Of a stretch of 64,000 nt of DNA, positions 1 through 16,071 are shown piece by piece. The stretch comes from Embleya scabrispora (GTDB lineage Bacteria > Actinomycetota > Actinomycetes > Streptomycetales > Streptomycetaceae), in assembly GCF_002024165.1 (NCBI RefSeq), contig NZ_MWQN01000003.1, positions 186,001 through 250,000 of the forward strand, read 5' to 3'. The first letter of the stretch is position 1. The number at the start of each line of letters is the position of its first letter. The translations under genes were made by a program, and so were the position numbers. The notes under the pieces were generated by a model that had not been told where the DNA came from, did no database searches, and saw nothing but the letters and a program-made list of their open reading frames with translations.

Positions 1-2
1 CG

Positions 3-1202
3 TTGAGCGTGGGCGCGACGGTATGCGTGCCGGCCGAGGACGTCCGGCTCGACCCGGTCGCCCTGTGCCGGTGGCTGGACCGGGAACGGATCGATCTGAT
101 CCACTGCGTGCCCTCGGTCTTTCGCGCCCTGGCGGGCGCGATCGACACGGTCCGGCCGGGGTTCGAGGCACTGAAGTGCGTGGCCCTGTCCGGTGAGCGC
201 GTGCTGCCCGCCGACGCCGCCGGCTGGTTCGACCGCTTCGGCGAGCGGATCCGGCTGCTGAACCTCTACGGGCCCTCGGAAACCACCATGACGAAGACCT
301 TCCACTTCGTCACCGCCGCCGACGCGCGGAGCAGGTCCGTCCCGATCGGACGCCCGATGCCCGACACCGTCGTCCTGCTGCTCGACGAACGCGGCCGGGA
401 GGTACCACCGGGGCGGGTCGGCGAGGTTCACCTGCGTACGGCCTACCGCAGCCTCGGGTACCACCGCAGGCCGCAGGAGACCGAACGCGCCTTCATCGCC
501 GACCCCACCCGGCCCGGCGGCGGCGAAGTCGTCTACCGGACCGGGGACTTCGCGCGCCTGCTGCCCGACGGCACGCTCGACTTCCTCGGCCGCCGGGACC
601 GACAGGTCAAGGTCGGCGGCGTGCGGGTGGAGCTGGACGGGGTTGAGCAGCTCCTGCGCGAGGACCCGTCGGTCGCCGAGGCGGCCGTCGTGTCGGTCGA
701 GCCGGACGACGCCCCGCCGTACCTGTGCGCGTTCGTCGAGACCGGCACGGGGACGGACTCCGAGGAACTTCGCACTCGACTGGGCGAGCATCTGCGCGCA
801 CACCTGCCGGACGGCGCGATCCCGGCGGTGATCGTGCCGCTGGAGCTCATTCCGCGCACCATCAGCGGCAAGATCGACCGCAAGGCGCTCACCGTGCCCG
901 TGCGGTCCCCCGCCCGACCCGACGCGGACGCCGTCGCACCGCGCACAGCCACCGAACGCACGATCGCCGGGATCTGGGCGCGTACGCTGCCGGCCCCGGT
1001 CGACGACGTGCGCACCCGGTTCTTCGACGTGGGCACCTCGCTGGCCGTGATCTCGGTGCTGGCGCGGCTGACGGAGGAGTTCGGAGTGTCCGTCCCGCTG
1101 GCGGACTTCCTGGCGAACCAGACGATCGAGGGCCTGTCGAACCTGGTCGAGCGCTTGCTGCTCGCCGACGACGACGCCGACGACGACCTCTTCGGGAGCT
1201 GA
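3..1202 (+). CDS. NRPS-like adenylation domain plus peptidyl carrier domain (5' truncated by window)
   Basis: The frame is open at the left edge, so only the C-terminal ~399 residues are seen. They hold the second half of an AMP-forming adenylation domain: A5 motif NLYGPSETT (~87-95), A7 YRTGD (~178-182), A8 RDRQVKVGG (~200-208) and A10 KIDRKAL (~290). A carrier domain follows. Its 4'-phosphopantetheine site reads FFDVGTSLAVIS (Ser ~346), one residue shorter than the usual FFxLGGxSL. An acidic tail (DDDADDD) ends the protein. By family it activates an amino or aryl acid as the AMP ester and loads it on its own carrier. The substrate cannot be read because the A4 region lies outside. The stop codon is followed after 1 nt by the next start, so this is the same operon as the PP-loop, racemase and dehydrogenase genes. 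Confidence 0.9.
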   Translation: MSVGATVCVPAEDVRLDPVALCRWLDRERIDLIHCVPSVFRALAGAIDTVRPGFEALKCVALSGERVLPADAAGWFDRFGERIRLLNLYGPSETTMTKTFHFVTAADARSRSVPIGRPMPDTVVLLLDERGREVPPGRVGEVHLRTAYRSLGYHRRPQETERAFIADPTRPGGGEVVYRTGDFARLLPDGTLDFLGRRDRQVKVGGVRVELDGVEQLLREDPSVAEAAVVSVEPDDAPPYLCAFVETGTGTDSEELRTRLGEHLRAHLPDGAIPAVIVPLELIPRTISGKIDRKALTVPVRSPARPDADAVAPRTATERTIAGIWARTLPAPVDDVRTRFFDVGTSLAVISVLARLTEEFGVSVPLADFLANQTIEGLSNLVERLLLADDDADDDLFGS

Positions 1203-1203
1203 C

Positions 1204-3663
1204 ATGACCGACCAGCCGCTGGACGCCGAGCGGATCGAGTCCGTCGAACGCCGGGTGCGGACGGCCGTGTTGGACCAGGACGGCGTCCTCGACTGCGCCG
1301 TCGTGTTCAACGAGGCCGACCCCGCGGCGGCCGGCGCCCGCGCCTGTGTCCGGTGCGGGATCAGCGCCGCGTACCCGGGACTGCGCTTCGATTCGGACGG
1401 GGTCTGTTCGCTGTGCGCGCGCTACGCCGCCCATCGATCGGCGATGCACGCCTACTTCCGTGACCCGCGGGAACTGGCGCCGCGGCTGCGCGAGGCCGCG
1501 CGAGGGCGCGGATCGCACTACGACTGCCTGCTGCTGTTCAGTGGCGGCAAGGACAGCACGTATGTGCTCTACCAGCTCGTGGAACTGGGTCTGCGCGTAA
1601 TGACCTTCACCTTCGACAACGGGTTCATCTCGCGGACCGCGCTGCGCAACGTCGAGAGCGTCACCGCCGAACTGGGCATCGAACACGTCACCGCCACCCA
1701 CGCCGACCAGAAGCGGATCTTCCTGAACTCGCTCCAGGAGCACAAGAGCGTGTGCAACGGGTGCTTCCGCTCCCTCCTGGACCTGAGCACCGAACTCGCG
1801 CACCGGCGCGACATCCCCACGGTGGTCACCGGGCTCTCCCGCGGCCAGATCATGGACGAGCGGCTGTCCTGGTTCCACGAGCAGGGCATCTTCGACGTGG
1901 CCGAGATCGAGGAGAAGCTGCGGCTGGGCCGGGAGGTGTACCACCGGGCCGCGGGCACGGTCGACGCCGCCGCGGTGAACGCGGTCCAGGTCGTCGACTA
2001 CTTCCGCTACTCGGCGGTGACGAAGGAGGACGTGCGAGCCTTCCTGCGCGAGCGCTCGTCGTTCTGGGCGCAGCCCACCGATACGGGGTTCTGCAGCTCG
2101 AACTGCATGATCAACGATGTGGGCACCTATGTTCACGCCGCGGAGCGCGGTTTCCACAACTACGAGGCGCCGACCCGCTGGGAGGTACGGCTCGGGCACC
2201 TGGACGTCGCCGAGGCGGACGCGGAACTGCGCGCCCCGGTGGAGACCGCGCAGGTGAAGCGGATGCTGGCCAGGATCGGCTATCCGGACCCGGCCGACGC
2301 CGACCGGACGGGCGCCCGGCTGGCGGTCTACTACGTCGCCGACCCCAGCGCGTCGGGCGACCGGCTCGCGGCCGCGGTGGCCGATGCCCTGCCGCCCGCA
2401 CTGGTACCGGCGCAGTGGGTGCGGGTGGCGGAGATCCCCAGGGTCGCGGGCGCCGTGGATCGGTGGGCTCTGCGCGGGATGCACCGCCCGAAGGCCCCGG
2501 GCTCGCGGGGCGGGGGCGTCACCGCGGACGCGGATTCCGATCGCTCGGTCGCGGTCCGTCCGGTACAGCGTCGGATTCTCGATGGGGATCCGGTCCGGGC
2601 GGCGCACCGGGCCCGAGCCCTGTTCCTGACCTCGGAGTCCGGTTTCCCGGTCGCCGACCTGAAGCGGGTGTGGCTGCAACTGCTGCTGCACCACGAGGCG
2701 TTGCGACTGCGATTCGGCCACGGGGATCAGGGCTGGCGGCAGTCCCGGGGCGGCCTCGGCGGGGCGGTCCACGTCTCGCGGGTGGACCTCACCGGCCAGG
2801 ACCCGGACGCGCAGGGGCGGGTGCTGCGCCGGCTCACCGACCGGATGCGGGCCCGGCTGCACGTCGATCGGGGTCCGCTGCTGCGGGCCGCGGTGGTCGA
2901 CCGGGGCGCGCGGCCGGCGGGTCTGTTGATCGTGGTGCACGAACTGGCCGCGGATGTCGAGTCCTGGCGGGTGCTGTTGGCGGACCTGGCCCTGGGGCTG
3001 GGACAGCTCCGGGCGGGCTCGGACGTCCGGTTGCCACCCGCCGCGTCGTTCCTGGACCACCCGGCCGAGCCCGCCGGCGTCGAGGACGAGGCGGGCCCGG
3101 AGGTCGCCGGGGCAGGCTGTGTCCTCCCGGGATCGCCCGCGCCCGAGCCGATCGCCGAGGAGTCGCTCGAAGCGCGCTGCCCGGTGCGCGCGGCGACGGC
3201 CCGCGACGTCGCCGCTGCGATCGCGCACGTGCTGGTCGAGGAGTTCGGCGGCGGGCGACTGGTCGCGGACGTCCTCGATCACACCACGCGCAGGCCCGCG
3301 ACACGGGTGATCGGTCCGCTGGCCGAAGCGGACCGCTGGGTGGTGACCCCGCTCGCGCGGGGAGCGAGCGTCGTACGGGTCGCGAGCGCGGCCGAGCCGG
3401 CCCGGGTGCGCTACGAACACTTCGGCGATCCGGCCGCCGCGCTGCTTCCGTCGGGGGTGGCCTGGACGCTGCGCGACACGGTGTGGCGGGACTTCGCCGG
3501 GCCGGTGCACCCGGGCGACACCGATGTGACGATCACCGGTGTCGTCGACGCCGGCGAGCTCGTGCTCACCTGGTGGTGTCCCGCCTCCGTGGGCACGCGG
3601 CTGGCGGCGGCCCACATCCCCGAGCGCGTCGCGCGGCGGCTGATCGGGGAGCAGGCCGGCTGA
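1204..3663 (+). CDS. PP-loop ATPase (sugar-amidotransferase/AANH-like) fused to a vestigial epimerisation/condensation-like domain
   Basis: 819 residues in two parts. The N-terminal half (to ~400) has a CxxC...CxxC zinc-ribbon-like pair (~48-71), the PP-loop SGGKDST (~112-118), a VCNGC motif (~184) and CSSNC (~297). This matches the N-acetyl-sugar amidotransferase / adenine-nucleotide alpha-hydrolase superfamily, which adenylates a carbonyl or thiolate for nitrogen or sulfur transfer. The C-terminal half (~445-800) resembles an NRPS epimerisation domain: PVQRRIL, LLLHHEALRLRFG and VHELAADVESWRVLLADL (~578-595). In the HHxxxD motif the second (catalytic) His is Glu, and the EGHGRE-like motif is absent. 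I infer a non-catalytic carrier-docking domain that brings the PP-loop enzyme to the loaded carrier of the upstream protein. I recognise no characterised protein with this layout. Confidence 0.75.
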   Translation: MTDQPLDAERIESVERRVRTAVLDQDGVLDCAVVFNEADPAAAGARACVRCGISAAYPGLRFDSDGVCSLCARYAAHRSAMHAYFRDPRELAPRLREAARGRGSHYDCLLLFSGGKDSTYVLYQLVELGLRVMTFTFDNGFISRTALRNVESVTAELGIEHVTATHADQKRIFLNSLQEHKSVCNGCFRSLLDLSTELAHRRDIPTVVTGLSRGQIMDERLSWFHEQGIFDVAEIEEKLRLGREVYHRAAGTVDAAAVNAVQVVDYFRYSAVTKEDVRAFLRERSSFWAQPTDTGFCSSNCMINDVGTYVHAAERGFHNYEAPTRWEVRLGHLDVAEADAELRAPVETAQVKRMLARIGYPDPADADRTGARLAVYYVADPSASGDRLAAAVADALPPALVPAQWVRVAEIPRVAGAVDRWALRGMHRPKAPGSRGGGVTADADSDRSVAVRPVQRRILDGDPVRAAHRARALFLTSESGFPVADLKRVWLQLLLHHEALRLRFGHGDQGWRQSRGGLGGAVHVSRVDLTGQDPDAQGRVLRRLTDRMRARLHVDRGPLLRAAVVDRGARPAGLLIVVHELAADVESWRVLLADLALGLGQLRAGSDVRLPPAASFLDHPAEPAGVEDEAGPEVAGAGCVLPGSPAPEPIAEESLEARCPVRAATARDVAAAIAHVLVEEFGGGRLVADVLDHTTRRPATRVIGPLAEADRWVVTPLARGASVVRVASAAEPARVRYEHFGDPAAALLPSGVAWTLRDTVWRDFAGPVHPGDTDVTITGVVDAGELVLTWWCPASVGTRLAAAHIPERVARRLIGEQAG

Positions 3664-3664
3664 G

Positions 3665-4456
3665 GTGGCGCGCTCACGCACCCTCGGTGTGCTCGGTGGG
3701 ATGGGACCGGCGGCGACGGCGGAGTTCCTGCGGCTGCTTGCCGTGCGCGTGGCGGCCGGCAGCGACCGGGAGCACCCCCGGATCCTGATGCTGTCCGAGC
3801 CGGGCATCCCGGACCGGACCGCCGCGCTGCTCAGGGGCGACGACGCACCGCTTTTGCCGATCCGGCAGGCGCTGTTCACCCTTGCCGACTGGGGCGCGGA
3901 GCTGCTCGCGGTGCCCTGCAACACCGCGCACGTCTACATCGATCGATTCCGCGACCGACTGCCGGTGCCCCTGGTGCACATCGTGGAGGCGAGCGTACGG
4001 GCCGCCGAGGTCGCCAGTCCCGACGGGGCCTGGTTGACGGCGACCGCGGGTACCGTCGCCGACGGCATCTATCAGCGCTATGCGCAGCACCGGGGATACC
4101 GACTCCTGCTCCCCGACGAGGCGCGCCGGCGGCGCATCCACGCCGCCGCCGTGCTGGTGAAGGCGAACCGGCTGCCGGCTGCCGGCGCGACCCTGGGTTC
4201 GGCGGTCCACGAGTTGCTGCGCATTCGATGCCTGCCGGTGATCAGCGCCTGTACCGAACTCCCGCTCGCCTACGCGCACAGCGGGCTGCCGGCGCGATTC
4301 CAGGTGTCCAGTGTCGACGCACTGGCGTCGGCCTGCGCGCACGCCCTGTACCCCGACCGCGGACCCGTACCGGGCCTGCTCTCGTCGACGGCCCCACGGG
4401 CGGTCGCCGGGTCCGGCTCCGGGTCCACGTCCGATCCCCCCGAAGGAGCACGATGA
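3665..4456 (+). CDS. Aspartate/glutamate racemase family protein
   Basis: 263 residues starting at GTG, 1 nt after the preceding stop. The N-terminus LGVLGGMGPAAT is typical of the Asp/Glu racemase superfamily. Both catalytic cysteine motifs are present: PCNTAH (~85) and SACTELPLAY (~195). Members invert the alpha carbon of aspartate or glutamate without a cofactor, using two cysteines as base and acid. Placed between carrier-protein enzymes, it probably supplies a D-amino acid, or racemises an intermediate, for the product of this operon. Its substrate cannot be read from sequence. The C-terminal ~30 residues are Ser/Gly/Pro-rich. The stop overlaps the next start as ATGA. Confidence 0.85.
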   Translation: MARSRTLGVLGGMGPAATAEFLRLLAVRVAAGSDREHPRILMLSEPGIPDRTAALLRGDDAPLLPIRQALFTLADWGAELLAVPCNTAHVYIDRFRDRLPVPLVHIVEASVRAAEVASPDGAWLTATAGTVADGIYQRYAQHRGYRLLLPDEARRRRIHAAAVLVKANRLPAAGATLGSAVHELLRIRCLPVISACTELPLAYAHSGLPARFQVSSVDALASACAHALYPDRGPVPGLLSSTAPRAVAGSGSGSTSDPPEGAR

Positions 4457-5607
4457 CACTCGCACGCCTGTCGAAGGAACGCCGGCTGCTGCGCGAGACG
4501 GTCGCCGACTTCGCCCGCGCCAAGGTGGCTCCGGTGATCTCCGATATCTACCGACGCGAGGAGTTTCCCTACGAACTGGTCGCCGCCATGGGCCGCATGG
4601 GCTTGTTCGGGCTGGCCTTCGAGGAGCGCTACGGCGGCATGGGCGGGGATGTGTTCACCCTGTGTCTGGCCATCGAGGAACTGGCCAGAGTGGACTGCTC
4701 GGTGGCCGTCGCTCTGTCCGCGGGCGTGACGCTCGGCGCGATCCCCATCCATCGGTTCGGCACCCCGGCACAGAAGGAACGCTGGCTCCCCGCCCTGTGC
4801 ACCGGCGAGCGGATCGCCGGCTTCGGGCTCACCGAACCCGGCGGCGGGACCGACACGGCGGCGGCCCGCACCAAGGCGGAACTCGACGGTGACGAATGGG
4901 TGATCAACGGCAGCAAGGCGTTCATCACCAACTCCGGTACCGACATCACCAGCCTGGTCACCGTGACGGCGGTGACCGGCACCCGCGCCGACGGCGCCAA
5001 GGAGATCTCCGCGCTCGTCGTGCCGTCGGGCACCCCGGGCTTCACGGTGGCACCGTCGTACTCCAAGGTGGGCTGGTGCGCCTCGGACACCCACGAACTC
5101 GGTTTCGCCGACTGCCGGGTGCCGGCCGAACACCTGCTCGGCGAACGCGGCCTGGGCATCGCGCAGTTCATGTCGGTGCTGGACGAGAGCAGGATCGCGA
5201 TCTCGGCCGTCGGAGCGGGGATGGCCCAGGGCTGCGTGGACGAGTGTGTGCGCCATGCCAAGGAGCGGACGGCGTTCGGGCAGCGCATCGGCGCGTACCA
5301 GTCGATCCAGTTCAAGATCGCCGACATGGAGACGCGCGCCCACACCGCACGCCTGGCCTACTACTCGGCCGCGGCCTCGATGCTGCGCGGCGAATCCTTC
5401 TCGAAGGAGGCGGCGATGGCCAAGCTGGTCTCCTCCAGGGCGGCGATGGACAACGCCAGGGACGCGACCCAGATCTTCGGTGGCTCCGGCGTGATGAACG
5501 ACAGCCCCGTGGGCCGCTTCTACCGCGACGCCAAGATCCTGGAAATCGGCGAAGGCACCACGGAGGTACAACAGATGATGATCGCCAGGCACCTCGGCTT
5601 GTCCTGA
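4453..5607 (+). CDS. Acyl-CoA dehydrogenase family flavoprotein
   Basis: 384 residues from ATG at 4453, preceded by a good ribosome site (GAAGGAG) and overlapping the racemase stop by 4 nt. The fold signatures are clear: FGLTEPGGGTDT (FAD/substrate loop), KAFITNSG, RIAISAVGAGMAQG, KERTAFGQRIGAYQSIQFKIAD, QIFGGSGV, and the C-terminal GEGTTEVQ with the usual catalytic Glu. Such enzymes make an alpha,beta-double bond in an acyl thioester using FAD. In natural-product operons with an A domain and a carrier, homologues oxidise carrier-bound aminoacyl groups, for example prolyl-PCP to pyrrolyl-PCP. That role is an inference here. A role with free acyl-CoA is the alternative. Confidence 0.9.
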   Translation: MTLARLSKERRLLRETVADFARAKVAPVISDIYRREEFPYELVAAMGRMGLFGLAFEERYGGMGGDVFTLCLAIEELARVDCSVAVALSAGVTLGAIPIHRFGTPAQKERWLPALCTGERIAGFGLTEPGGGTDTAAARTKAELDGDEWVINGSKAFITNSGTDITSLVTVTAVTGTRADGAKEISALVVPSGTPGFTVAPSYSKVGWCASDTHELGFADCRVPAEHLLGERGLGIAQFMSVLDESRIAISAVGAGMAQGCVDECVRHAKERTAFGQRIGAYQSIQFKIADMETRAHTARLAYYSAAASMLRGESFSKEAAMAKLVSSRAAMDNARDATQIFGGSGVMNDSPVGRFYRDAKILEIGEGTTEVQQMMIARHLGLS

Positions 5608-6668: not shown

Positions 6669-7535
6669 CTACGGACGTTGCGGGTGGGGTGGCTGTGCCG
6701 GTGGCCGGCGGCGGCCCAGTGGGATGACCAAAGGGGTGCCCGAGACCGGGTCGTCGATGATTTGGCACGGTAGACCGAAGACGTCCTCGACCAGCTCCGG
6801 CGTGACGATGTCGCGGGGTGGCCCGACGGCGAACACCGTGCCGTCGCGCATGGCGATGATGTGGTCGGCGTAGCGGCAGGCGTGGTTGAGGTCGTGCAGG
6901 ACCGCGACGAGGGTGTGGCCATCGCGTTCGTTGAGGTCGCGCAGGAGTTCGAGGAGTTCGATCTGGTGGGCGATGTCGAGGAATGTGGTGGGCTCGTCCA
7001 GGAGCAGCAGTGGGGTCTGCTGGGCCAACACCATGGCCACCCATACGCGTTGGCGCTGGCCCCCCGACAGGGCGTCCACCAGGCGCGGCGACAGGTCGGT
7101 GGTCCCGGTCGCGGCCAGGGCGTTCAGCACGGCCGTCTCGTCCTCGTCGGACCACTGGCGCAGCAGCTTCTGGTGGGGATAGCGGCCTCGGGCGACGAGG
7201 TCGGCCACCGTGATGCCGTCGGGGGCGACCGAGGTCTGCGGGAGCAGGCCCATCCGCCGGGCCACCTCCTTGGCCGGAAAGGACGAGATGGCCTTGCCGT
7301 CCAGGTGCACCGTGCCGGCAACCGGGGTGAGCAGACGGGACAGTGCGCGCAGGAGCGTGGACTTGCCGCACGCGTTGGGGCCGATGATCGCGGTGATCGC
7401 TCCGTCGGGGATGTGCACGGTGAGGTCGCGGGCCACGAGGCGATCGTCGTACCCGAGGGTCAGTCCCTGTGCCCACAGCCGGGGCGCGGAAGTCGGTGTG
7501 GCGGGGTGCGCGCGGGGGTCGACGGCGATGTTCAT
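6669..7535 (-). CDS. Iron-siderophore ABC transporter ATP-binding protein (FecE/FhuC type)
   Basis: 288 residues. Walker A GPNACGKST (~55), signature LSGGQRQR (~150), Walker B LLLLDEPTTFLD and switch His VLHDLNHACRYAD fit the FecE/FhuC family closely. It energises uptake of ferric siderophore through the two FecCD permeases encoded just upstream. It is the last gene of the five-gene minus-strand uptake operon, 112 nt after the second permease, so it may have its own ribosome site but shares the promoter near 12.27 kb. The N-terminal ~15 residues are variable. Confidence 0.93.
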   Translation of the reverse strand: MNIAVDPRAHPATPTSAPRLWAQGLTLGYDDRLVARDLTVHIPDGAITAIIGPNACGKSTLLRALSRLLTPVAGTVHLDGKAISSFPAKEVARRMGLLPQTSVAPDGITVADLVARGRYPHQKLLRQWSDEDETAVLNALAATGTTDLSPRLVDALSGGQRQRVWVAMVLAQQTPLLLLDEPTTFLDIAHQIELLELLRDLNERDGHTLVAVLHDLNHACRYADHIIAMRDGTVFAVGPPRDIVTPELVEDVFGLPCQIIDDPVSGTPLVIPLGRRRPPAQPPHPQRP

Positions 7536-7647
7536 CGTGGCGAAGTCCGTTCTGCGATGGAGGGGTTGGGGGCTCCGTGGGCGCGGGTGCCGGCGTCGCG
7601 AACCGGGGCGGACGCCGGGCGGCCGACCGCTCGCGTCGCGCGGGTCG

Positions 7648-8865
7648 TCACTGCCGCCGTGCCTCGCCGACCAGCAGCCGAATCAGGTAGGCGCCGCCGA
7701 TGCTGACCGTGACCACTCCCACCGGCAATTGGGTCGGTGCGAACAGGGTTTGAGCGAACCAGTCGCTCGTGATCAGCAGCGCCGCCCCCATCGCGGCCGA
7801 CGGCAGTATCGTCACCCCCGCGCTGCGGGCGACGCGGCGGGCCAGTTGCGGCGCGGCGAGCGCGACGAACGAGATCGGTCCGGCCGCGGCGGTGACCATG
7901 GCGGTCAGCGCGACCCCGGTGACCACGAGGGCGATGCGGGTCGGCTCGGTGCGTACCCCCAGGGCGCGGGCGGCGTCGTCGCCCATCTCCAACATCCGCA
8001 TGCGTCGGCCGAGGATCAGGGCGATCGGCAGCAGGATCGCGAACACGACGGAAACCGGGCGTACTTGCTGCCAGCCCAGGCCGTTGAGCGAGCCGGCTCC
8101 CCACACCGCCGCCGCCATCGCGGTCTCCAGGTCGGCCTTGACGATGACCCACGTGTTGACCGACGCGAGCAGCGCGCTGATGCCGATGCCCACGATGATC
8201 AGCCGAAAGCCCTGGATTCCCTGCCGGTAGGCCAGCAGGTAGACCAGCGCGGCGGTTGCGATCCCACCCACGAGGGCTCCGCAGGCGACCTGGTAGTAGC
8301 CGCCGTGGACGAGCATGATCACCATGAGCGCGCCGGTGTTGGCGCCGGTATTGAAGCCGATGATGTCCGGGCTGCCGAGCGGATTGCGGGTCAACGACTG
8401 GAAGATGGCGCCACTGACACCGAGCGCGGCACCGGCGAGCAGGGCCAGCAGGACGCGAGGCAGTCGCCATTCGATCACGACCATGTGCACCTTGGCGGGT
8501 ACGTCCGTGAACAGTGCCTCGGTCACCTGGACGGGCGAGAGCGAGTACTCCCCCGTGCCCAGTGCCAGGACGGCGACGACGGCCGTGACGACGAGCAGCG
8601 CCGCACACGCGACGCCGGTCCGGACGTCCAGGCGCAGCGACACACGTCCGTCGAGGAGCCGGATCACCCGGACCGCGCGCCCGAAGTCGATCGCCGCGTG
8701 CGGTCCGGGGCGTACGCCCGCCCGCTCCGCCTCCTCGTCGCGGGCGTCCGGGCCGGCCGAGCCGCGGCCCGGCGCGGTGGGCGGCGACGCGAGAGTGGAC
8801 GTGGACGACGCGGCGCCCGGCAACGGCGTGCTGGGCGAAGTCGGCGACGGATCCGGCGACTTCAC
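7648..8865 (-). CDS. FecCD family iron-siderophore permease (second)
   Basis: 405 residues from GTG at 8865, overlapping the first permease stop as GTGA, with AAGGTGAG upstream. The frame stays open further upstream, but the coupled start fits best. The first ~100 residues are a Pro/Ser/Thr-rich cytoplasmic extension. About nine hydrophobic segments then follow. Family signatures are RLPRVLLALLAGAALGVSG, QSLTRNPLGSPDIIGFNTGA, GDDAARALGV and AGPISFVALAAPQLAR. It forms the membrane channel as a heterodimer with the first permease. Confidence 0.93.
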   Translation of the reverse strand: MKSPDPSPTSPSTPLPGAASSTSTLASPPTAPGRGSAGPDARDEEAERAGVRPGPHAAIDFGRAVRVIRLLDGRVSLRLDVRTGVACAALLVVTAVVAVLALGTGEYSLSPVQVTEALFTDVPAKVHMVVIEWRLPRVLLALLAGAALGVSGAIFQSLTRNPLGSPDIIGFNTGANTGALMVIMLVHGGYYQVACGALVGGIATAALVYLLAYRQGIQGFRLIIVGIGISALLASVNTWVIVKADLETAMAAAVWGAGSLNGLGWQQVRPVSVVFAILLPIALILGRRMRMLEMGDDAARALGVRTEPTRIALVVTGVALTAMVTAAAGPISFVALAAPQLARRVARSAGVTILPSAAMGAALLITSDWFAQTLFAPTQLPVGVVTVSIGGAYLIRLLVGEARRQ

Positions 8866-10085
8866 AGTCCGCTCACCTTCTGTCGACGCACCAGGGCGAT
8901 GAGCACGGGGACGCCGACGAACGCCGTCACGATGCCGACCTGGAGTTCGCCGGGGCGCACCACCAGGCGGCCCAGGACGTCGGCGACGAGCAACAGAATC
9001 GGCGACAGGACCAGGGTGTAGGCCAGGATCCAGCGCTGATCGGGGCCGGTGATCCAGCGCGCCACGTGCGGCACCATCAGGCCCACGAAGCCGATGGGTC
9101 CGGCGACGGCGGTCGCGCCGCCACACAGCAGGGTGATCGCGATCACCGACGACACGCGGGTACGGGTGATGTTCACCCCGAGCGCGCGGGCGGCGTCGCC
9201 GCCGAGGGCGACCGCGTTGAGCGCACGGGCCACGCTCGCCGCCACCACGAGTCCGATCAGCAGGAAGGGGGCGACCTGTGCGATGGTGTCCCACTGTCGT
9301 CCGGCGATGGAGCCCGCCGACCGGAAGCGCATGCGGTCGAACGTGGTCGGATCCAGCAGCGTGATCCCGGAGCTGATCCCGCCCAGCACCGCGCCCAGCG
9401 CCACGCCCGCCAGGGTCAGCCGCACCGGGGTGGCGCCGCCGCGACCGCGCGAGCCGATGGTGTACACCGCGACGGTGGTCACGATCGCGCCCAGGAACGC
9501 GAACCAGATGTAGCCGCGCAGGTCGGTGATGTCGAACACGGCGATCGCCAGGACCGCGGCGAACCCGGCACCGGCGTTGACCCCGAGGATGCCTGGGTCG
9601 GCGAGCGGATTGCGGCCGACCGCCTGGATCACCGCTCCGGCGACGCCCAGCGCCGTGCCGACGAGCACCCCCAGCAGGGTGCGGGGCAGCCGCAGGTCAC
9701 GGACGATCACGTGGTCGTTGGAGCCGTCGTAGTGGAAGAGCGCGTCCCATACGGTCGGGAGCGGGATGTTCTTCGACCCGATCGCGACGCTCAGCAGGAT
9801 CACGAGTACGAGTGCGGCGGTGGCCACGATCAGCCACAGGCCGCGCCGCACGGGCGAGTCCGCCACGGGCCCGCGCTCCGCTTTCGCGTGCGTGGGAGCG
9901 GCCGGAGCCGCCGAGGCCGCGGCGGTGTCCGTGCCCGCGGAAACCGCCTCGCCCGGGGCCGTGTCCCGGACGGGCCCGACCGGTCCGACGCGTCCGGAAC
10001 GCTCGGCAGGCTCGACAGCGTCGACCCTATCGACCGGCGAGCCGGACCCCGCGGGCGCGATCCGCGCGCCCTGTGGTGCGTTCAC
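8862..10085 (-). CDS. FecCD family iron-siderophore permease (first)
   Basis: 407 residues from GTG at 10085, overlapping the reductase stop as GTGA. An Ala/Pro/Gly-rich leader of ~80 residues precedes the hydrophobic core. Signatures: LRLPRTLLGVLVGTALGVAG, QAVGRNPLADPGILGVNAGA, GGDAARALGVNITRTR and AGPIGFVGLMVPHVARW, the BtuC/FecCD contact region for the ATPase. It pairs with the second permease. The long hydrophilic leaders on both permeases are unusual in length but low in complexity. Confidence 0.93.
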   Translation of the reverse strand: MNAPQGARIAPAGSGSPVDRVDAVEPAERSGRVGPVGPVRDTAPGEAVSAGTDTAAASAAPAAPTHAKAERGPVADSPVRRGLWLIVATAALVLVILLSVAIGSKNIPLPTVWDALFHYDGSNDHVIVRDLRLPRTLLGVLVGTALGVAGAVIQAVGRNPLADPGILGVNAGAGFAAVLAIAVFDITDLRGYIWFAFLGAIVTTVAVYTIGSRGRGGATPVRLTLAGVALGAVLGGISSGITLLDPTTFDRMRFRSAGSIAGRQWDTIAQVAPFLLIGLVVAASVARALNAVALGGDAARALGVNITRTRVSSVIAITLLCGGATAVAGPIGFVGLMVPHVARWITGPDQRWILAYTLVLSPILLLVADVLGRLVVRPGELQVGIVTAFVGVPVLIALVRRQKVSGL

Positions 10086-11005
10086 AACCCGACACCCTCC
10101 AACGTGGCCTCGACCTCGTCGAGGATGTTCTCGATCTCCTCCTCGGGCTGCTCCTCGTGCACGGCGTCGAAGGCCGTCTCCAGGCGCCGCTTCACCTCGG
10201 GGTCGAGGCCGGCGTACCGCTCGTCCCACTCCTCGGCGTTGTGCGTCCAGTAGCCGACCACCTTGTACATCCGGGCGGGCAGCCTCAGTTCGTGCCGCAC
10301 GTGGCGGCGGATCTCGCGCATGGCACGGGTCTCGCCCGCGGCCCACACGTAGCCGGGGCCTTCGGGCAGCGTCAGCGCGCGCAGCGCCTGGGGCAGCCGA
10401 CTGGGCGCGTCGCCGTTGCCGCTGCCGTGCAGCCAGACGTACTCGACGTCGGCGGCACTGTCGAAGACCTGCTCGTGGCCGGTGTCCGCGACCTCGACGA
10501 TCACCCGGGCCCGTGTTCGGGCCGGGAGCTGTTCGACGAGCCGGCCCAGCGCGGGCAGGCCGGTGGCGTCGCAGGCGAGGATCTGCCAGACGGTCTCGGC
10601 CGGTGGGGCGTAGAGGCCGCGCGCTGTACCGATACCCACCCGGTCACCCGGCCGGGCGGCGAGTGCCCACGCACTTGCCAGGCCCCCGTCGTGGACGACG
10701 AAGTCGATGGTGACCTCGCCGCGTTCCGCGTCGAAGCGCCGCACCGTGTAGCGCCGGGTCTGCGCGTAGCGGTCGGCCTCGTCGGCGGCGTTCCCGGCCT
10801 CTCGGGGACTCGCGCCCGGGTTCTCGTCGGACGGTATCGGTTCGCCGGTGTCGGGGAACGGGAAGTGCAGGCGCAGGTATTCGTCGCCGACGCCGGTGCT
10901 CTCGAAGGCGCGCAGTCCCTCGCCGCCGAACACGATCCGGATCATGCCGGTCGTCAGGCGGAAGTGTTCCAGCACCGTTCCCCGGTGCAGCGGGTCGTTC
11001 GTCAC
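10082..11005 (-). CDS. Siderophore-interacting protein (FAD ferric-siderophore reductase, SIP family)
   Basis: 307 residues from GTG. It has the SIP-family FAD-binding region RRYTVRRF (~83), DFVVHDGGLASAWALAARPGD (split by family loops), the NAD(P)H-side motif AAGETRAMREIRRH and the C-terminal YWTHNAEEWDERYAG. Members reduce Fe(III)-siderophore in the cytoplasm so that iron is released. The tail is rich in Glu. It is the second gene of the uptake operon, 4 nt after the binding protein and overlapping the first permease. This supports one iron-acquisition unit rather than heme or cobalamin uptake. Confidence 0.93.
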   Translation of the reverse strand: MTNDPLHRGTVLEHFRLTTGMIRIVFGGEGLRAFESTGVGDEYLRLHFPFPDTGEPIPSDENPGASPREAGNAADEADRYAQTRRYTVRRFDAERGEVTIDFVVHDGGLASAWALAARPGDRVGIGTARGLYAPPAETVWQILACDATGLPALGRLVEQLPARTRARVIVEVADTGHEQVFDSAADVEYVWLHGSGNGDAPSRLPQALRALTLPEGPGYVWAAGETRAMREIRRHVRHELRLPARMYKVVGYWTHNAEEWDERYAGLDPEVKRRLETAFDAVHEEQPEEEIENILDEVEATLEGVGL

Positions 11006-11009
11006 GTGG

Positions 11010-12038
11010 TCACCCCAACACCTTCGCGGCGGATACGAGTTCGTCGAGCAGGGCCGTCGCGGTCAGGACGAGGCCGGCGGTGGTGTCGTAGTTCAGCGGT
11101 ACGACCCGCCCGGCCCGCACGGCGGGCAGCCGCTGCCAGGTCTTGGCTTGCGTCGCCGGCGCGTCGGGGTCCTTCCAGATGATCAGGTCGGCCGGTGCGA
11201 AGACGTCGATCTGTTCGGGACTGTAGAAGTCGTTGAACGGCTTGTTCGGGTCGCGGTCGGGCTGATGGAACATCACGTCCATGCCCAACTCCAGTGCGAC
11301 ACTCAGGTAGAAGCTGCGCCTTTGCACCCAGAAGTCGGTGTCGTCGGACCCGCCGATGAGCACCTTGCGGCCCGCCAACAGGGGACCGACCTCGGCTCGG
11401 GCCCGGGCCAGGCGCGCGTCGTAGTCGGCGAGCAGTCGGCGGGCGAGGTCGCCGCGCCCGAGCAGGGTCAACTGCTCCTGGCTGTAGCGGCGCCAGAACG
11501 GGCTGAAGCCGCCGCTGACCACGAGCACGGGAGCAATGTCCTGGGTCAACAACTTCTTGTCCTGGTAGAACTTCCACCAGTCGGCGCCGACCACCAGCAG
11601 ATCCGGTCGCTGGGCCAGGATCGCCTCGGCGTTGGGCTCGCGGACATTGCCCTGCAACACCTGGAAGTTCGCGGGCAGCCGGTCGGAGAGGTGGTTGCGG
11701 CCCTCGATGCGGTAGCCGCCGATCATCGGATATCCGGCCATGGCGGCGAACTCGACGCCGGTGCGCGGATCCAGCACGATCACGCGCCGGGGATCGGCCG
11801 GGATGCGCGTGCTGCGGCCCTCGTAGGAGAAGTCGAGGGTGGTCGCGGCCGATGGCGCGTCCTTCGTCTTCTCGGCGCCGCCGCACGCGGCGAGCAGTGT
11901 GCCCAGCGACAACATCCCCGCGCCCAGCGCGAAACGACGTCGGGTCAACTCTCCGCCGACGCGGGCCCCTCGCGTGTCCCCCGCCCCGGGGCGGGCGGGC
12001 GTCGGTGGGATGGGGGTCGAGGTGACGGTCGCGCTCAT
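11010..12038 (-). CDS. Iron-siderophore ABC transporter substrate-binding lipoprotein (Tat signal)
   Basis: 342 residues from ATG at 12038, with GGAG 8 nt upstream. The N-terminus has a twin-arginine signal LTRRRFALGAGMLSLG ending in lipobox LLAAC, so it is a Tat-exported lipoprotein. The body follows the FepB/FecB pattern: RIPADPRRVIVLDPRTG, NAEAILAQRPDLLVV and a C-terminal LLDELV. It captures the ferric siderophore outside the membrane. The reading frame is open in phase for ~65 more codons, to an ATG at 12233 that also has a GGAG. The shorter start is preferred because it places the Tat motif normally. First gene of the operon, downstream of an iron box. Confidence 0.92.
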   Translation of the reverse strand: MSATVTSTPIPPTPARPGAGDTRGARVGGELTRRRFALGAGMLSLGTLLAACGGAEKTKDAPSAATTLDFSYEGRSTRIPADPRRVIVLDPRTGVEFAAMAGYPMIGGYRIEGRNHLSDRLPANFQVLQGNVREPNAEAILAQRPDLLVVGADWWKFYQDKKLLTQDIAPVLVVSGGFSPFWRRYSQEQLTLLGRGDLARRLLADYDARLARARAEVGPLLAGRKVLIGGSDDTDFWVQRRSFYLSVALELGMDVMFHQPDRDPNKPFNDFYSPEQIDVFAPADLIIWKDPDAPATQAKTWQRLPAVRAGRVVPLNYDTTAGLVLTATALLDELVSAAKVLG

Positions 12039-12267
12039 ACGTACGGCTCCGCGGCGCGGGTGAGCACGTCGAACACGATCGGCGCGCAGCCCCGCCGGCA
12101 CCGGCACGCCCGCCTCCGAGCCGAACCGAAGCCGGGTCGGTCCATGGCCGACGCGCGCCTGTTGCGGCTCGCCGAGGAGGGCGTCGGGCGGTCGCGGCGG
12201 GGTGCGGCGCGGCGTAGGTGTGGTCGTCGGCATCGGCGTCTCCGGAGACAGGAACACGAGAGCAAGG

Positions 12268-12286
12268 TTAGGTAAGCCTTGCCTAT
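12268..12286. promoter_or_regulatory. IdeR/DmdR-type iron box
   Basis: The 19-bp sequence TTAGGTAAGCCTTGCCTAT is a near-perfect palindrome and fits the actinobacterial iron-box consensus TWAGGTWAGSCTWACCTWA. It lies between the divergent binding-protein gene (ATG 12038) and the ABC exporter (ATG 12443), so an iron-loaded DtxR-family repressor probably controls both directions. Confidence 0.85.
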
Positions 12287-12442
12287 CAATACGCGAGGTG
12301 ATCTCATCCCGCAACACCCGATGTCGGGCACACGCCAGACCTTGTCGCGAATCGGACACCGAACGCCGCGCCGGCCGATTCGAGCCATGGTCCGTCCGTT
12401 TCGCACGCAACCGGCACGGCCTCGTCACTACCGTCGGCTCCC

Positions 12443-14203
12443 ATGCCCGCACCCACCGCCCCGCCGAAACTCCCTGCTCACCCAGTCCCGTCCGGCCTTC
12501 TCGGTACGTCCGTGACCTCGCGCGCCGTGTTGCGGTACGCGCTCACCGGCGATCGACGGGGTCGATATCTGGTCGGCGCCTCCGTGGGCCTGACCGGTCA
12601 TCAGGTGGCCGAGGCGGCCGTCCCGGTCGTCGTCGGTGTGGTGATCGACCAGGCGGTGGCCACCGGCGACGCGGCCGCGCTCGGGCGCTGGCTGACTGTG
12701 CTGGCCGTGGTGTTCGTCGGCCTGCTGTGCTCGTGGCGCTTCGCCGCCCGCGCCGCCGCCCGCGTCACCGAGTACGGCGCCCACGACGTGCGGATGGCCG
12801 TCGCCCGCCGGGCGCTGGACCCGCACGGCACGACGCCGCGACGGATGCCCGGCGAACTGGTCGCGCTCGCCACCTCCGACGCGCAGACGGTGGCCCGGTT
12901 CACGCACACCCTCGGCAGCAAACTCGCGGCAGCCGCGGCCATCGTCACGGCCGCGGTCGCGCTCCTGGTGATCTCCGTCCCGCTGGGCCTGCTGGTCCTG
13001 CTGGGCACGCCACCGGTGCTGATCGCGATGCAGTACCTGAGCCGCCCGCTGGAACGGCGCAGCGAACACGACCACGAACTCGCCGCCCGCGCCGGTGCCG
13101 TCGCCACCGACCTGCTCACCGGACTTCGCGTCCTGGACGGCATCGGCGCCCGCTCCGAGGCCGCCCGCCGCTACCGCCGCGACAGTCGCGCCGCACTCGC
13201 CGCGACGCTGCGCACCGAACGCGCCCAGGCGTGGTACACCGCCGCCAACACCCTGCTCACCGGCGGCCTGTTGGCGCTGATCGCCCTGGTGGGCGCGCAC
13301 CTGGCGGCGCGGGGCCGGATCACCGTGGGCGAGTTGGTGACCGTCGTGGGTCTTGCCCAGTTCCTCCAGGGCCCCCTGGTGGACGTCGCCTACTTCGCCT
13401 CCGGCCTGGGCCGCGCCCGCGCCTCGGCACGCCGTGTCGTGGCCCTGCTCACCTCGGACCCGGCGGTGGGCCCGGGCACCCGCTCACCCGCGAGCGCGGT
13501 CCCGGGGCGGCCGGTCGGGCATGTCCGCGCGGACGGGCTGGGCGTCGGCGGCCTGATCGACGTCGGCTTCGTGGTCGAGCCCGGCGAGTTCGTCGGCATC
13601 GTCACCGACGACGCCGGGCACGCCGAGGCGCTGGTCGACGTCCTCGCCCGGCGCCGTGACCCCGACGCCGGCGCCCTGTACCTGGACGGCGTATCCGTGG
13701 CCGAACTCGATCCCGACGATCTGCGCCGCACGGTGGTCGCCCCACCCCACGACGCCGCCCTGTTCGCGGGCACCATCGCCGACAATGTCGGGCGGGCCGA
13801 ACCACGGGCGGTCCGAGCCGCGCTCGCCGCGGCCTGCGTGGACGAGGACATCGCGGCCCTGCCCGCCGGCCTCGACACCACCGTCACCGAACAGGGTCTG
13901 TCGCTGTCCGGTGGGCAGCGCCAACGCCTGGCCCTGGCGCGCGCGTTGGCCACCCGCGCCGCGGTCCTGGTCCTGCACGACCCCACCACCTCGGTCGACA
14001 CCGTCACCGAGGCCCGGATCGCCGCCGGCCTGCGCGCCGACCGGGTCGGCCGCACCACGATCCTGGTCACCACGAGCCCGACCCTGCTCGCCGTATGCGA
14101 CCGGGTGATGGTGCTCGCGGCCGACGTCACCCGCGGCACCACCGGTACCCACGCCCAACTGGCCGCCGTCTCGCCCGGCTACCGTGAACTGGTGCTCGCA
14201 TGA
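12443..14203 (+). CDS. ABC exporter half-transporter with degenerate nucleotide-binding motifs
   Basis: 586 residues: a six-helix membrane domain (~25-320) and a nucleotide-binding domain (~360-586). The Walker A position (~383-393) reads GIVTDDAGHAEA, with no GKS/T. The Walker B end is VLVLHDPTTS, with no catalytic Glu. The H-loop His is Thr (LVTTSP). In contrast the signature [15 protein letters not shown] (~488) is intact. This subunit can therefore supply only the signature half of an ATP site. The stop overlaps the next start (ATGA), and the partner has the reciprocal pattern. The fold is exporter type; by position next to siderophore genes it may export a siderophore or import it as in mycobacterial IrtAB. 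No clear ribosome site precedes the ATG. Confidence 0.9.
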   Translation: MPAPTAPPKLPAHPVPSGLLGTSVTSRAVLRYALTGDRRGRYLVGASVGLTGHQVAEAAVPVVVGVVIDQAVATGDAAALGRWLTVLAVVFVGLLCSWRFAARAAARVTEYGAHDVRMAVARRALDPHGTTPRRMPGELVALATSDAQTVARFTHTLGSKLAAAAAIVTAAVALLVISVPLGLLVLLGTPPVLIAMQYLSRPLERRSEHDHELAARAGAVATDLLTGLRVLDGIGARSEAARRYRRDSRAALAATLRTERAQAWYTAANTLLTGGLLALIALVGAHLAARGRITVGELVTVVGLAQFLQGPLVDVAYFASGLGRARASARRVVALLTSDPAVGPGTRSPASAVPGRPVGHVRADGLGVGGLIDVGFVVEPGEFVGIVTDDAGHAEALVDVLARRRDPDAGALYLDGVSVAELDPDDLRRTVVAPPHDAALFAGTIADNVGRAEPRAVRAALAAACVDEDIAALPAGLDTTVTEQGLSLSGGQRQRLALARALATRAAVLVLHDPTTSVDTVTEARIAAGLRADRVGRTTILVTTSPTLLAVCDRVMVLAADVTRGTTGTHAQLAAVSPGYRELVLA

Positions 14204-16071
14204 CCCGTCACGCCGACCCGACACCCGAACCACCCCTGCTTCCCGTCGCCGACACCGCGCAGACCCGATACGCCGCCCGACGCCTGCTGCGCCCGCACGG
14301 CCGCCGGGCCCTGGCAGCGGTCGCCCTGCTCATCACGTCCACCGCGATCGGCCTGGCCGGCCCACTCGTCCTGGGCCGCATGGTCGACGCCGTCGACCGG
14401 TACGGGTCCGGCGCCGGATCGCGCGTCACGGTATTGGCCGGCCTGCTCGCGGCCATCGCCCTCGCCCAGGCCGTATTGGGCGCGATCAGCCACTACCTGG
14501 TGGTCGGGGTCGGCGAGAGCATGGTGGCCGACCTGCGCGAGGACGTCCTGGGCCGGGCACTCGACCTACCCCTGGACGACATCGAGCGCACCGGCCGCGG
14601 CGACCTGGTCGCCCGCGCCGGCGGCGACGTACGCGTGGTCGCGGACGCCGCCGCCGAAACCGTCCCGGTGTTCACCACGGCGCTGGCCACCATCGTGCTG
14701 ACCCTGATCGGCATGGGCACCCTCGACTGGCGCTTCGCCCTCGCCGCCCTGGTGGCCGCGCCGATCCAGATCGGCGCGCTGCGCTGGTACCTGCGCCGAT
14801 CCGCACCGGTGTACCGAGCCGAGCGGATCGCCGAGGGACAACGCGCCCAGCGCCTCCTGGACGCCCTCGGCGCGGTGGACACCGTGACCGCGATGCGACT
14901 CGGTCCGGCCCACCTGGACGCCGTCGCCGACCGCTCCCGCGCCTCGATCGACCTGAGCCTGACCGCGACCCGGCTGCGCACCCGCTTCTTCGGCCGACTC
15001 AACGCCGCCGAACTCGTCGGGCTCGCGTCGGTACTCGCCGTCGGATTCCGGTTGGTCCGCTCGGGCACGGTCTCGATCGGCGAGGCGACCGCCGCCGCGC
15101 TGTTCTTCCACCGCCTGTTCAACCCCGTCGGCTCCCTGCTCGCCGTCTTCGACCAGCTCCAGGAAGCCGCCGCCGGCCTGGCCCGACTCGTCGGGGTCAC
15201 CCTGCTCCCGCGCACCGAAGAACCCGCCCACCCGCCGACGCCGCAGGACGCGTCCCTCCACGTGCGGCACGTCTCGTTCGCCTACCCCGACGGTCCCGAC
15301 GTGCTCACCGGGCTCGACCTGTGGATCGCGCCGGGCGAGCGGGTCGCCCTGGTGGGCACGACCGGCGCGGGCAAGTCGACCGCCGCCGGGCTGATCGCCG
15401 GCGTCCGCGCACCCACCGCCGGCACGATCCGCCTCGGCACGGTGGGACTCGCCGATCTGGGCCGCACGGCCACCCGTCGGCAGATCGCGATCGTCACCCA
15501 GGAGGTACACGTCTTCGCCGGCACCCTCGCCGACGACCTGCGGCTGGCCCGACCGGACGCGGACGACGCGACGATCGCACGCGTCCTCGCGACGGTCGGC
15601 GCCGACGGATGGGTCGGCGCACTACCCGAGGGCACCGACACCCGCGTCGGCGCCGGGGGCCACATCCCGACCGCCACTCAGGCGCAACAACTCGCGCTCG
15701 CCCGGGTCCTGCTCCTGGATCCGCCGATCGTGGTCCTGGACGAGGCGACCGCGGACGCGGGCAGTACCGGCGCCCGCACCCTGGAGGCCGCCGCGTCGGC
15801 GCTGCTCGACGGGCGCACCGCGATCGTGGTCGCGCATCGTCTCCGGCAGGCCGCGACCGCGGACCGGGTGATCGTCCTGGATCACGGACGGATCGTCGAA
15901 CAGGGACGGCACGACGAGCTGGTGACGGCGGGCGGGCGCTACGCGAGACTGTGGCGGGCCTGGTCGGCGCCCGCAGAGAGCCGGGTGCCCGCCGCAGGTG
16001 GAGCGCCTGCGGCGGATCGCACGCCGACGGGACGGGGCTCGATGTCGTCGTCGCAGACGAGCCCGGAGTAG
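14200..16071 (+). CDS. ABC exporter half-transporter, catalytic partner
   Basis: 623 residues, translationally coupled to the previous gene. The membrane domain (~30-330) is followed by a nucleotide-binding domain with intact Walker A VGTTGAGKST (~384-392), Walker B PPIVVLDEATAD with its Glu, and H-loop IVVAHRL. The signature position is not LSGGQ but GAGGHIPTATQAQQLALARV. With the neighbour it would form a heterodimer having one complete ATP site (this Walker A/B plus the neighbour's LSGGQ) and one completely dead site. The last ~40 residues are low-complexity and overlap the convergent araC-type gene by 133 bp. Confidence 0.92.
   Translation: MTRHADPTPEPPLLPVADTAQTRYAARRLLRPHGRRALAAVALLITSTAIGLAGPLVLGRMVDAVDRYGSGAGSRVTVLAGLLAAIALAQAVLGAISHYLVVGVGESMVADLREDVLGRALDLPLDDIERTGRGDLVARAGGDVRVVADAAAETVPVFTTALATIVLTLIGMGTLDWRFALAALVAAPIQIGALRWYLRRSAPVYRAERIAEGQRAQRLLDALGAVDTVTAMRLGPAHLDAVADRSRASIDLSLTATRLRTRFFGRLNAAELVGLASVLAVGFRLVRSGTVSIGEATAAALFFHRLFNPVGSLLAVFDQLQEAAAGLARLVGVTLLPRTEEPAHPPTPQDASLHVRHVSFAYPDGPDVLTGLDLWIAPGERVALVGTTGAGKSTAAGLIAGVRAPTAGTIRLGTVGLADLGRTATRRQIAIVTQEVHVFAGTLADDLRLARPDADDATIARVLATVGADGWVGALPEGTDTRVGAGGHIPTATQAQQLALARVLLLDPPIVVLDEATADAGSTGARTLEAAASALLDGRTAIVVAHRLRQAATADRVIVLDHGRIVEQGRHDELVTAGGRYARLWRAWSAPAESRVPAAGGAPAADRTPTGRGSMSSSQTSPE

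Follow-up and report, generated by a model that had tools for sequence, protein, structure and literature searches.

The window examined here is a stretch of 64,000 nucleotides from Embleya scabrispora (G000:C3:186001-250000, part of a 10.96-Mb genome), and its first genes form a cassette built around a PP-loop protein of 819 amino acids. The window begins inside the first gene of this cassette, and 40 kb of 5' sequence, in which genes were called by a simple script, was added to it (negative coordinates below). Four genes follow one another on the forward strand: (i) a didomain of an adenylation (A) domain and a peptidyl carrier protein (PCP), of which the C-terminal two thirds lie at 1..1202 and the N-terminal third, starting near -630, falls outside the window; (ii) the PP-loop protein (1204..3663); (iii) an Asp/Glu racemase family protein (3665..4456); and (iv) an acyl-CoA dehydrogenase (ACAD) family protein (4453..5607), whose gene overlaps the racemase stop by 4 bases. 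With intergenic gaps of 1, 1 and -4 bases and matches to Pfam and TIGR00035, the neighbours listed by the first-pass annotation were all recovered. The A-PCP keeps the A10 lysine and a carrier serine within GTSL, and its pocket code reads DARHASLMTK, with Arg at position 239 and His at 278. The racemase scores above the cut-off of TIGR00035 (123.9 bits, cut-off 93.1) and below that of the cysteate racemase model (169.5 bits, cut-off 190). Its motifs PCNTAH and ACTELPL are both present and presumably supply the active-site cysteines. Beyond the window edge, AsnB is encoded on the same strand (-2516..-657); it matches the TIGR01536 asparagine synthase model at 458.8 bits (cut-off 267.1) as well as glutaminase domains.

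The PP-loop protein is composite. Residues 46-350 (1339..2253, forward strand, as are all its parts) form a zinc-ribbon PP-loop domain homologous to domains inserted between motifs a8 and a9 of A domains in two clostridial loci (L031 and L032) and in a group of Asn-coded modules described below. Every motif attributed to it at first was found within 1204-3663: two zinc-ribbon CxxC pairs (residues 48-51 and 68-71), the PP-loop SGGKDST beginning at residue 113 (SGGKDS, residues 113-118, 1540..1557) and CSSNC (C297-C301, 2092..2106; low model confidence). A further motif, CNGC (1753..1764), holds C184 and C187, which together with C301 are candidate Fe-S ligands. On either side of the domain lie relics of the two parts of the C-terminal subdomain of an A domain: residues 1-45 (1204..1338), a weak match on its own (7.9 bits), and residues 351-432 (2254..2499; 29.4 bits), in which the A10 lysine has been lost (GAVDRWAL). 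An epimerisation (E)-type domain completes the protein (2524..3663). The initial description of a PP-loop ATPase joined to an E domain thus named two real components and missed the A-subdomain halves, which make the protein more than an independent ATPase with a tail.

The assignment of the C-terminal half to the E-type domains of nonribosomal peptide synthetases (NRPSs) was borne out by sequence and by modelling. The top PDB sequence matches are chains of TycA, BacC, PvdL and GrsA with epimerisation domains. In the model of the window protein (md75f564cfbd0, mean pLDDT 77.5, CSSNC loop below 50), residues 444-819 superimpose on the TycA PCP-E structure 9bfg_B with a Z score of 31.1 (rmsd 3.1, 353 aligned residues), and condensation (C) domain structures reach at best a Z score of about 26. 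The HHxxxDG site reads HELAADV (in VHELAADVESW), Glu580 standing in place of the second catalytic histidine, and the HH pair occurs in none of the 21 split proteins that reach the site. As first proposed, this half is predicted to be catalytically dead. The fold matches listed for the window and L032 models were E, C and A domains and no PP-loop structures, the PP-loop fold not having been searched alone.

One scan of 84,980 genomes, seeded with the window PP-loop protein, returned 25 loci: 21 from Actinomycetota, two clostridial, one from a Planctomycetota metagenome-assembled genome (L033) and one from Massilia (L034). Close relatives are over-represented among them because this single scan was seeded with the window protein; the closest, in another Embleya scabrispora (L010), is 98% identical over the PP-loop region. 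The arrangement recurs in other genera and is far beyond chance. By tblastn, AsnB lies near the PP-loop gene in 24 of the 25 loci (33-97% identity), the single miss (L013) being cut off by its contig end, and is the steadiest partner of the PP-loop protein, above racemase and ACAD. Racemase and ACAD are not constant companions of the fusion, a point that the first-pass annotation had put up for testing. The A-PCP (at least 47%) is present in 21/21 actinobacterial loci and at 34% in Massilia; a racemase (at least 56%) occurs in 18/25, with a 29% relative further out in Massilia, and an ACAD (at least 65%) in 10/25, for which reason ACAD was rejected as a core member of the cassette. The pocket code is equally steady, at most two of its ten positions differing in each of the 21 actinobacterial A-PCPs. 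The same order was also found in a row on a plasmid of Streptomyces sp. NBC_01216 (asparagine synthase, NRPS protein consisting of A-PCP with code DARHASLMT, PP-loop protein, amino acid racemase).

The PP-loop domain is rare in even genome samples. Among 200 genomes of the window's family, five had it at 1e-20, two of them at 31% only; it was further found in 8 of 296 genomes of the class of G369 (two already known), in 2/291 and 2/369 genomes of the classes of L031 and L034, each including the known genome, in 1 of 57 genomes of a further sample, again the known one, and on 3 of 72,556 plasmids. The two 31% relatives in the window's family belong to G017 (L073) and G108 (L074), and one of them lies near a 34% amidinotransferase relative. 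Two marine Rhodobacterales plasmids (L103 and L104) have in common five protein accessions in a row beside a PP-loop match, namely YjbH, an A domain, a methyltransferase, an ACAD and a carrier protein; L104 lists no gene under the match itself.

Two clostridial loci suggest where the split protein came from. In L032 a single frame codes for an A core, the PP-loop domain, the rest of the A C-terminal subdomain, a PCP and a C domain with HHxxxDG; L031, from Ruminiclostridium, has the same order with the A core spread over two reading frames. This break (L048/L049), which precedes the inserted PP-loop, is either a genuine frameshift or an assembly error. Alignment places the PP-loop between a8 and a9 in both, and both ends of the split actinobacterial proteins map onto the two halves of the A C-terminal subdomain. 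The L032 model (pLDDT 83.7) superimposes on the A domain 4d4i across the insert (Z 51.2, rmsd 1.9, 470 aligned residues, range 2..822) and on the methyltransferase-interrupted A domain 5wmm (Z 46.5, 476 aligned). As in 5wmm, an auxiliary domain is nested in an A domain, but here a PP-loop domain replaces the methyltransferase and, in the window organism, has been split off. A profile derived solely from A-PCP and generic NRPS modules detected A-subdomain relics in 15 of the 21 split proteins and, per test, in no more than 1 of 420 shuffles, the scoring covering loci other than L019, L026, L031, L032 and L033. Because degenerate A-subdomain halves flank the PP-loop and homologs sit between a8 and a9, the window protein is best read as a descendant, split off and acting in trans, of such a nested PP-loop domain. 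An insert within one A domain is seen in L032 and in the Asn-coded modules; the window protein itself lacks an A core. Given the subdomain relics and the A-nested relatives, the dead E-type half is likewise best read as a remnant of a broken-up A[PP-loop]-PCP-E module. Tree support for grouping the split proteins is 84/93 with Massilia and 99/99 without it, deep order being weak. The a8-a9 interval is where most nested A-domain inserts are located; the available part of a review of them lists methyltransferases, monooxygenases, oxidases and reductases, and no PP-loop (PMC8949500).

If the module fell apart, the PP-loop protein itself could be a degenerate or structural leftover that lost its A core and carrier, as the plainly degenerate subdomain and E-type half might suggest. 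Yet the zinc-ribbon, PP-loop and CxxC residues are retained in 36-37 of 37 relatives (SGG in 37/37, KDS in 36/37, and C184, C187 and C301 in 37/37), which is not expected from decay, and we hold this explanation to be very improbable. The KDS exception, G995 (L095), is a 2150-aa frame with an interrupted A domain of neither of the two types compared below (code DPWYLGTIN); its PP-loop is degenerate (SGGRGA), its zinc-ribbon, CxxC and C301 are retained, and AsnB was not found in the stretch examined.

The substrate of the domain can be approached through a second group of nested relatives. In the 296 genomes of another actinobacterial class, nine places in eight genomes carry the PP-loop in frames of 967-3089 aa, and in all nine it sits between two halves of an A-domain subdomain. 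One further module of this kind was found among the 369 genomes of the class of Massilia and another on a Roseovarius plasmid, giving 11 modules from Actinomycetota and Proteobacteria. All 11 carry the code DLTK(I/V/M)GEV(G/A), that of G1302 having been read by eye, and we take this code to specify Asn. AsnB was not found beside the first ten modules, in stretches of 7.7-31 kb, and the annotation of the Roseovarius plasmid lists none. Presence of AsnB thus differs sharply between Asn-coded modules (0/10) and acid-coded loci (23/24; Fisher p 8e-8, relatedness not corrected), with L033 left out for an A protein of another type and L013 counted as a miss; the code of L031 is incomplete owing to the break in its A core. 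The two types differ in one cysteine as well: the ten Asn-coded modules and Roseovarius read STNC, whereas the members of our alignment A3 read CSSNC, so that C297 is present in 26/26 of the latter and 0/10 of the former; it is also absent from G995.

The Asn-coded modules fit the published description of AMDH, to which they are likened by architecture, code and SGGKD. According to the available part of its description (Gross et al. 2021, PMC7966384), AMDH is a 38-kDa domain with SGGKD in the stand-alone module CysH of cystobactamid biosynthesis, 69% identical to that of AlbIV from albicidin biosynthesis, and its homologs are found within A domains specific for L-Asn. Its action turns Asn on the carrier into cyanoalanine or is required for isoasparagine, the mechanism being left open; CysH purifies dark brown, and crystallisation attempts failed (PMC7966384). 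AMDH of CysH and AlbIV and the PP-loop domains described here would have in common an SGGKD domain acting on a carrier-bound carboxamide, and nesting in Asn-specific A domains, as in the 11 relatives. The window protein, in contrast, is not within an L-Asn-specific A domain: it is encoded by a separate gene, lacks A core and carrier, bears A-subdomain relics and a dead E-type tail, has an acid-coded partner (DARHASLMTK), and comes with AsnB, a racemase and the extra C297.

PP-loop enzymes adenylate carbonyl oxygens. Since Asn-coded modules occur without AsnB and acid-coded loci with it, the substrate of the PP-loop domain would most simply be a primary carboxamide, either already present in Asn or made by AsnB, the acid-coded cassette building it from loaded Asp. 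The conserved pocket, with Arg 239 and His 278, would suit such an acidic substrate. By analogy, the adenylated amide has precedents leading to a nitrile (AMDH, ArtA/NitB), a thioamide (CtaC) and an amidine (sugar amidotransferases). ArtA/NitB convert amide to nitrile at the expense of ATP, and the AsnB-like PesC converts carboxylate to nitrile (PMC13060819). These differ from the cassette in that PesC is one AsnB-like enzyme acting on a ribosomal peptide and ArtA is argininosuccinate-synthetase-like; the available part of the same source describes no carrier step (PMC13060819).

The scheme that we favour, at somewhat less than an even chance, begins with the loading of D-Asp, followed by its amidation by AsnB in the carrier-bound state; the PP-loop protein would then activate the carboxamide, most likely to a nitrile. 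The product of the operon would be a single carrier-bound unit, an unusual amino acid. D-Asp would come from the racemase, which is of Asp type, and would be loaded by the stand-alone A-PCP, D-isoaspartyl-S-PCP being the favoured form. AsnB, judging from its co-occurrence, would then turn the free carboxylate into a carboxamide while the unit remains carrier-bound. The PP-loop protein would dock in trans and adenylate the oxygen of the carboxamide, which would then be expelled, as by the related AMDH domain, to leave a nitrile; this is the least certain step. The nitrile heads the ranking since it requires no further nucleophile and is the reported product of the relatives nearest in architecture. 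In clusters that have an ACAD, this enzyme may desaturate the thioester, and the finished unit would be handed to the upstream NRPS. We infer the chemistry of the cassette as a whole. Relative to the first-pass annotation, amidation remains likely but is best assigned to AsnB, outside the window; the carrier-bound D- or dehydro-amino acid with an activated carbonyl is supported as an acidic and probably D-configured unit, with the nitrile, which had not been listed, as first candidate and the sulfur-containing and amidine products proposed at first kept as rivals.

Several observations weigh against this scheme and the origin proposed above. Six of the 21 split proteins, five from Streptomyces of one branch and that of Massilia (L021, L025, L028, L029, L030 and L034), carry no A-subdomain relic, and racemase and ACAD are absent from part of the loci. 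The DARH code, on which the preference for D-isoaspartyl-S-PCP depends, may be of the kind found in side-chain-carboxylate-activating A domains of the microcystin D-MeAsp/D-Glu type (DARH/DPRH), and the literature searched yielded no code strings for microcystin A domains to back this link. The presumed identity with AMDH of CysH or AlbIV is drawn from architecture, Asn code and SGGKD. The nearest curated family is that of the N-acetyl sugar amidotransferases, not reached at its cut-off. The best reason to doubt a plain transfer of the AMDH reaction is C297, carried by the acid-type proteins and missing from all ten Asn-coded modules, with which the reaction may differ, for example through sulfur transfer as in CtaC.

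In that case the PP-loop protein would be a thioamide synthetase that, like CtaC in the closthioamide pathway, puts sulfur in place of the oxygen of a carrier-bound carboxamide, with an Fe-S cluster on C184, C187 and C301 and C297 as an extra sulfur-handling cysteine. CtaC is described, in the part of the report available, as a PCP-dependent Fe-S PP-loop enzyme acting on PCP-bound amides, with CxxC and a later Cys (C154, C157, C284; PMC6772006). The corresponding set is found in the window protein (D117, S118, C184, C187 and C301), although the pattern is not unique to the CtaC family. It is invariant among the 37 relatives and complete in only 2/7 WbuX-family proteins above the N-acetyl sugar amidotransferase cut-off; C297 marks the type that accompanies AsnB, and the PP-loop profile reaches the LarE-like protein 8cnz (6e-7) and ThiI (0.003). 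However, because the Asn-coded, AMDH-like relatives (nitrile or isoasparagine) keep the three cysteines equally, the pattern does not single out sulfur transfer and was rejected as proof of it, and CysH is likewise brown. No sulfur-supply gene was seen in the operon, CtaC was likened by pattern, and the available part of its description names no A-domain insertion, AsnB or racemase (PMC6772006). A thioamide product is accordingly considered unlikely, if still worth serious attention.

N-acetyl sugar amidotransferases turn acetamido groups into amidines, and the PP-loop protein could similarly activate the carboxamide and add ammonia released by AsnB, which matches glutaminase domains. TIGR03573 (PDB 8wex for the family) is the best curated match to this zinc-ribbon PP-loop domain, all 26 members of A3 matching it and the window domain spanning profile positions 2-313 of 344. 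The window domain scores well below the family cut-off (109.4 bits, cut-off 203.2), though; the family substrate is a sugar, five of the seven proteins above the cut-off lack the CxxC...C set, and the tree separates from the relatives the two WbuX-family proteins that it included. No AsnB stands beside the Asn-coded relatives in the stretches examined, and an amidine seems to us quite improbable.

Equally hard to favour is an isomerase-type AMDH relative, shifting the amide from one carbonyl to the other and so exchanging Asn and isoAsn, for example via aminosuccinimide, so that the unit would be D-isoasparagine or D-asparagine with no new functional group. The isoasparagine linker of cystobactamids depends on AMDH, as far as the available text goes (PMC7966384), and loading of the side-chain carboxylate plus AsnB alone already gives isoasparagine. 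In this side-chain-activation model the PP-loop enzyme would be redundant, yet its domain shows a mean column identity of 70% over 26 members.

With nitrile formation on the carrier retained as the favoured outcome, what appears to be new is the A-domain PP-loop insert as a split, trans-acting protein together with on-carrier amidation by AsnB, the nested PP-loop itself being of a known kind. Literature searches returned nothing for the whole gene set; the earlier statement that no characterised pathway has it holds for the literature searched, although a characterised relative of the central domain, AMDH, seems to exist. The comparison connects a PP-loop/dead-E fusion that lacked an explanation with a domain for which the available account did not settle a mechanism (PMC7966384), and supplies a stand-alone, separately expressible AMDH relative, whereas the CysH domain sits inside a module. 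It also predicts two kinds of clusters, those using ready-made Asn (no AsnB, STNC) and those that make the amide in the carrier-bound state (acid code with AsnB and CSSNC).

Other loci place the cassette in diverse surroundings. NRPS-like proteins lie beside it in L018, L020 and L024, and condensation-domain-like proteins in L017 and L026; none was seen in the neighbour listing of L022, where several genes were missed. The surroundings in L021 hold, among others, a tyrosine 2,3-aminomutase (944 bits, cut-off 501), FAD oxidases, a C domain on its own and an HpaB-like hydroxylase (below cut-off); some 30 kb further on follow a polyketide synthase (KS, AT, KR, DH) and a 4HBT thioesterase. The NBC_01216 plasmid annotation lists much the same set plus an SgcJ-like protein, and both surroundings look like an enediyne-type cluster. 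With an aminomutase and a polyketide synthase as neighbours, the cassette may point to a building block of cytotoxic natural products that has so far escaped notice. It is possible, if doubtful, that the cassette is a portable set of split genes (AsnB, A-PCP, PP-loop protein acting in trans and mostly a D-Asp racemase) which amidates carrier-bound D-isoaspartate in place and turns the new amide into a nitrile or thioamide, a ready D-beta-amino unit common to NRPS and enediyne-like clusters. If so, an A-domain insert would have been set free as an enzyme acting in trans, and the product would bear a functional group not yet known. The 2-azatyrosine of kedarcidin was also considered as cassette product in enediyne-like clusters and rejected, with no supporting literature found and no defensible chemistry.

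In the window organism, two NRPS genes precede AsnB on the forward strand, one ending at -6434 and the next at -6399..-2518, with layouts C-A-T-C-A-T and C-A-T-TE, respectively, read by eye. The first gene of this upstream cluster (-14010..-12904, forward strand; L008:5990-7096) codes for an amidinotransferase of the HsvA/SxtG/AGAT type, with PDB matches to HsvA (2e-128), SxtG and L-arginine:glycine amidinotransferase; in Massilia, a 57% relative likewise precedes the NRPS genes (L050:655-1785). Also upstream, a methyltransferase gene (L008:4695-5747, reverse strand) weakly resembles 2-ketoarginine methyltransferase (67 bits, cut-off 425) and adjoins a glyoxalase-family gene, both on the strand opposite to the cassette. 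On the other side, at 6669-12452 and facing the cassette on the reverse strand, FepC-, FepG- and FepD-like transport genes, a siderophore-interacting protein (SIP) and a FepB-like binding protein were recognised by eye. A siderophore pathway for the cassette was rejected, this operon not being recovered beside the 98% identical cassette of L010, where one ATPase only, 30% identical to FepC and exporter references, and no SIP or FepB match were found (some references being incomplete and one containing a stop). Because of this the Fep/SIP-like operon is treated as a mere neighbour. Adjoining the FepB-like gene, two overlapping genes at 12443-16071 (forward strand) look like the paired halves of an ABC exporter.

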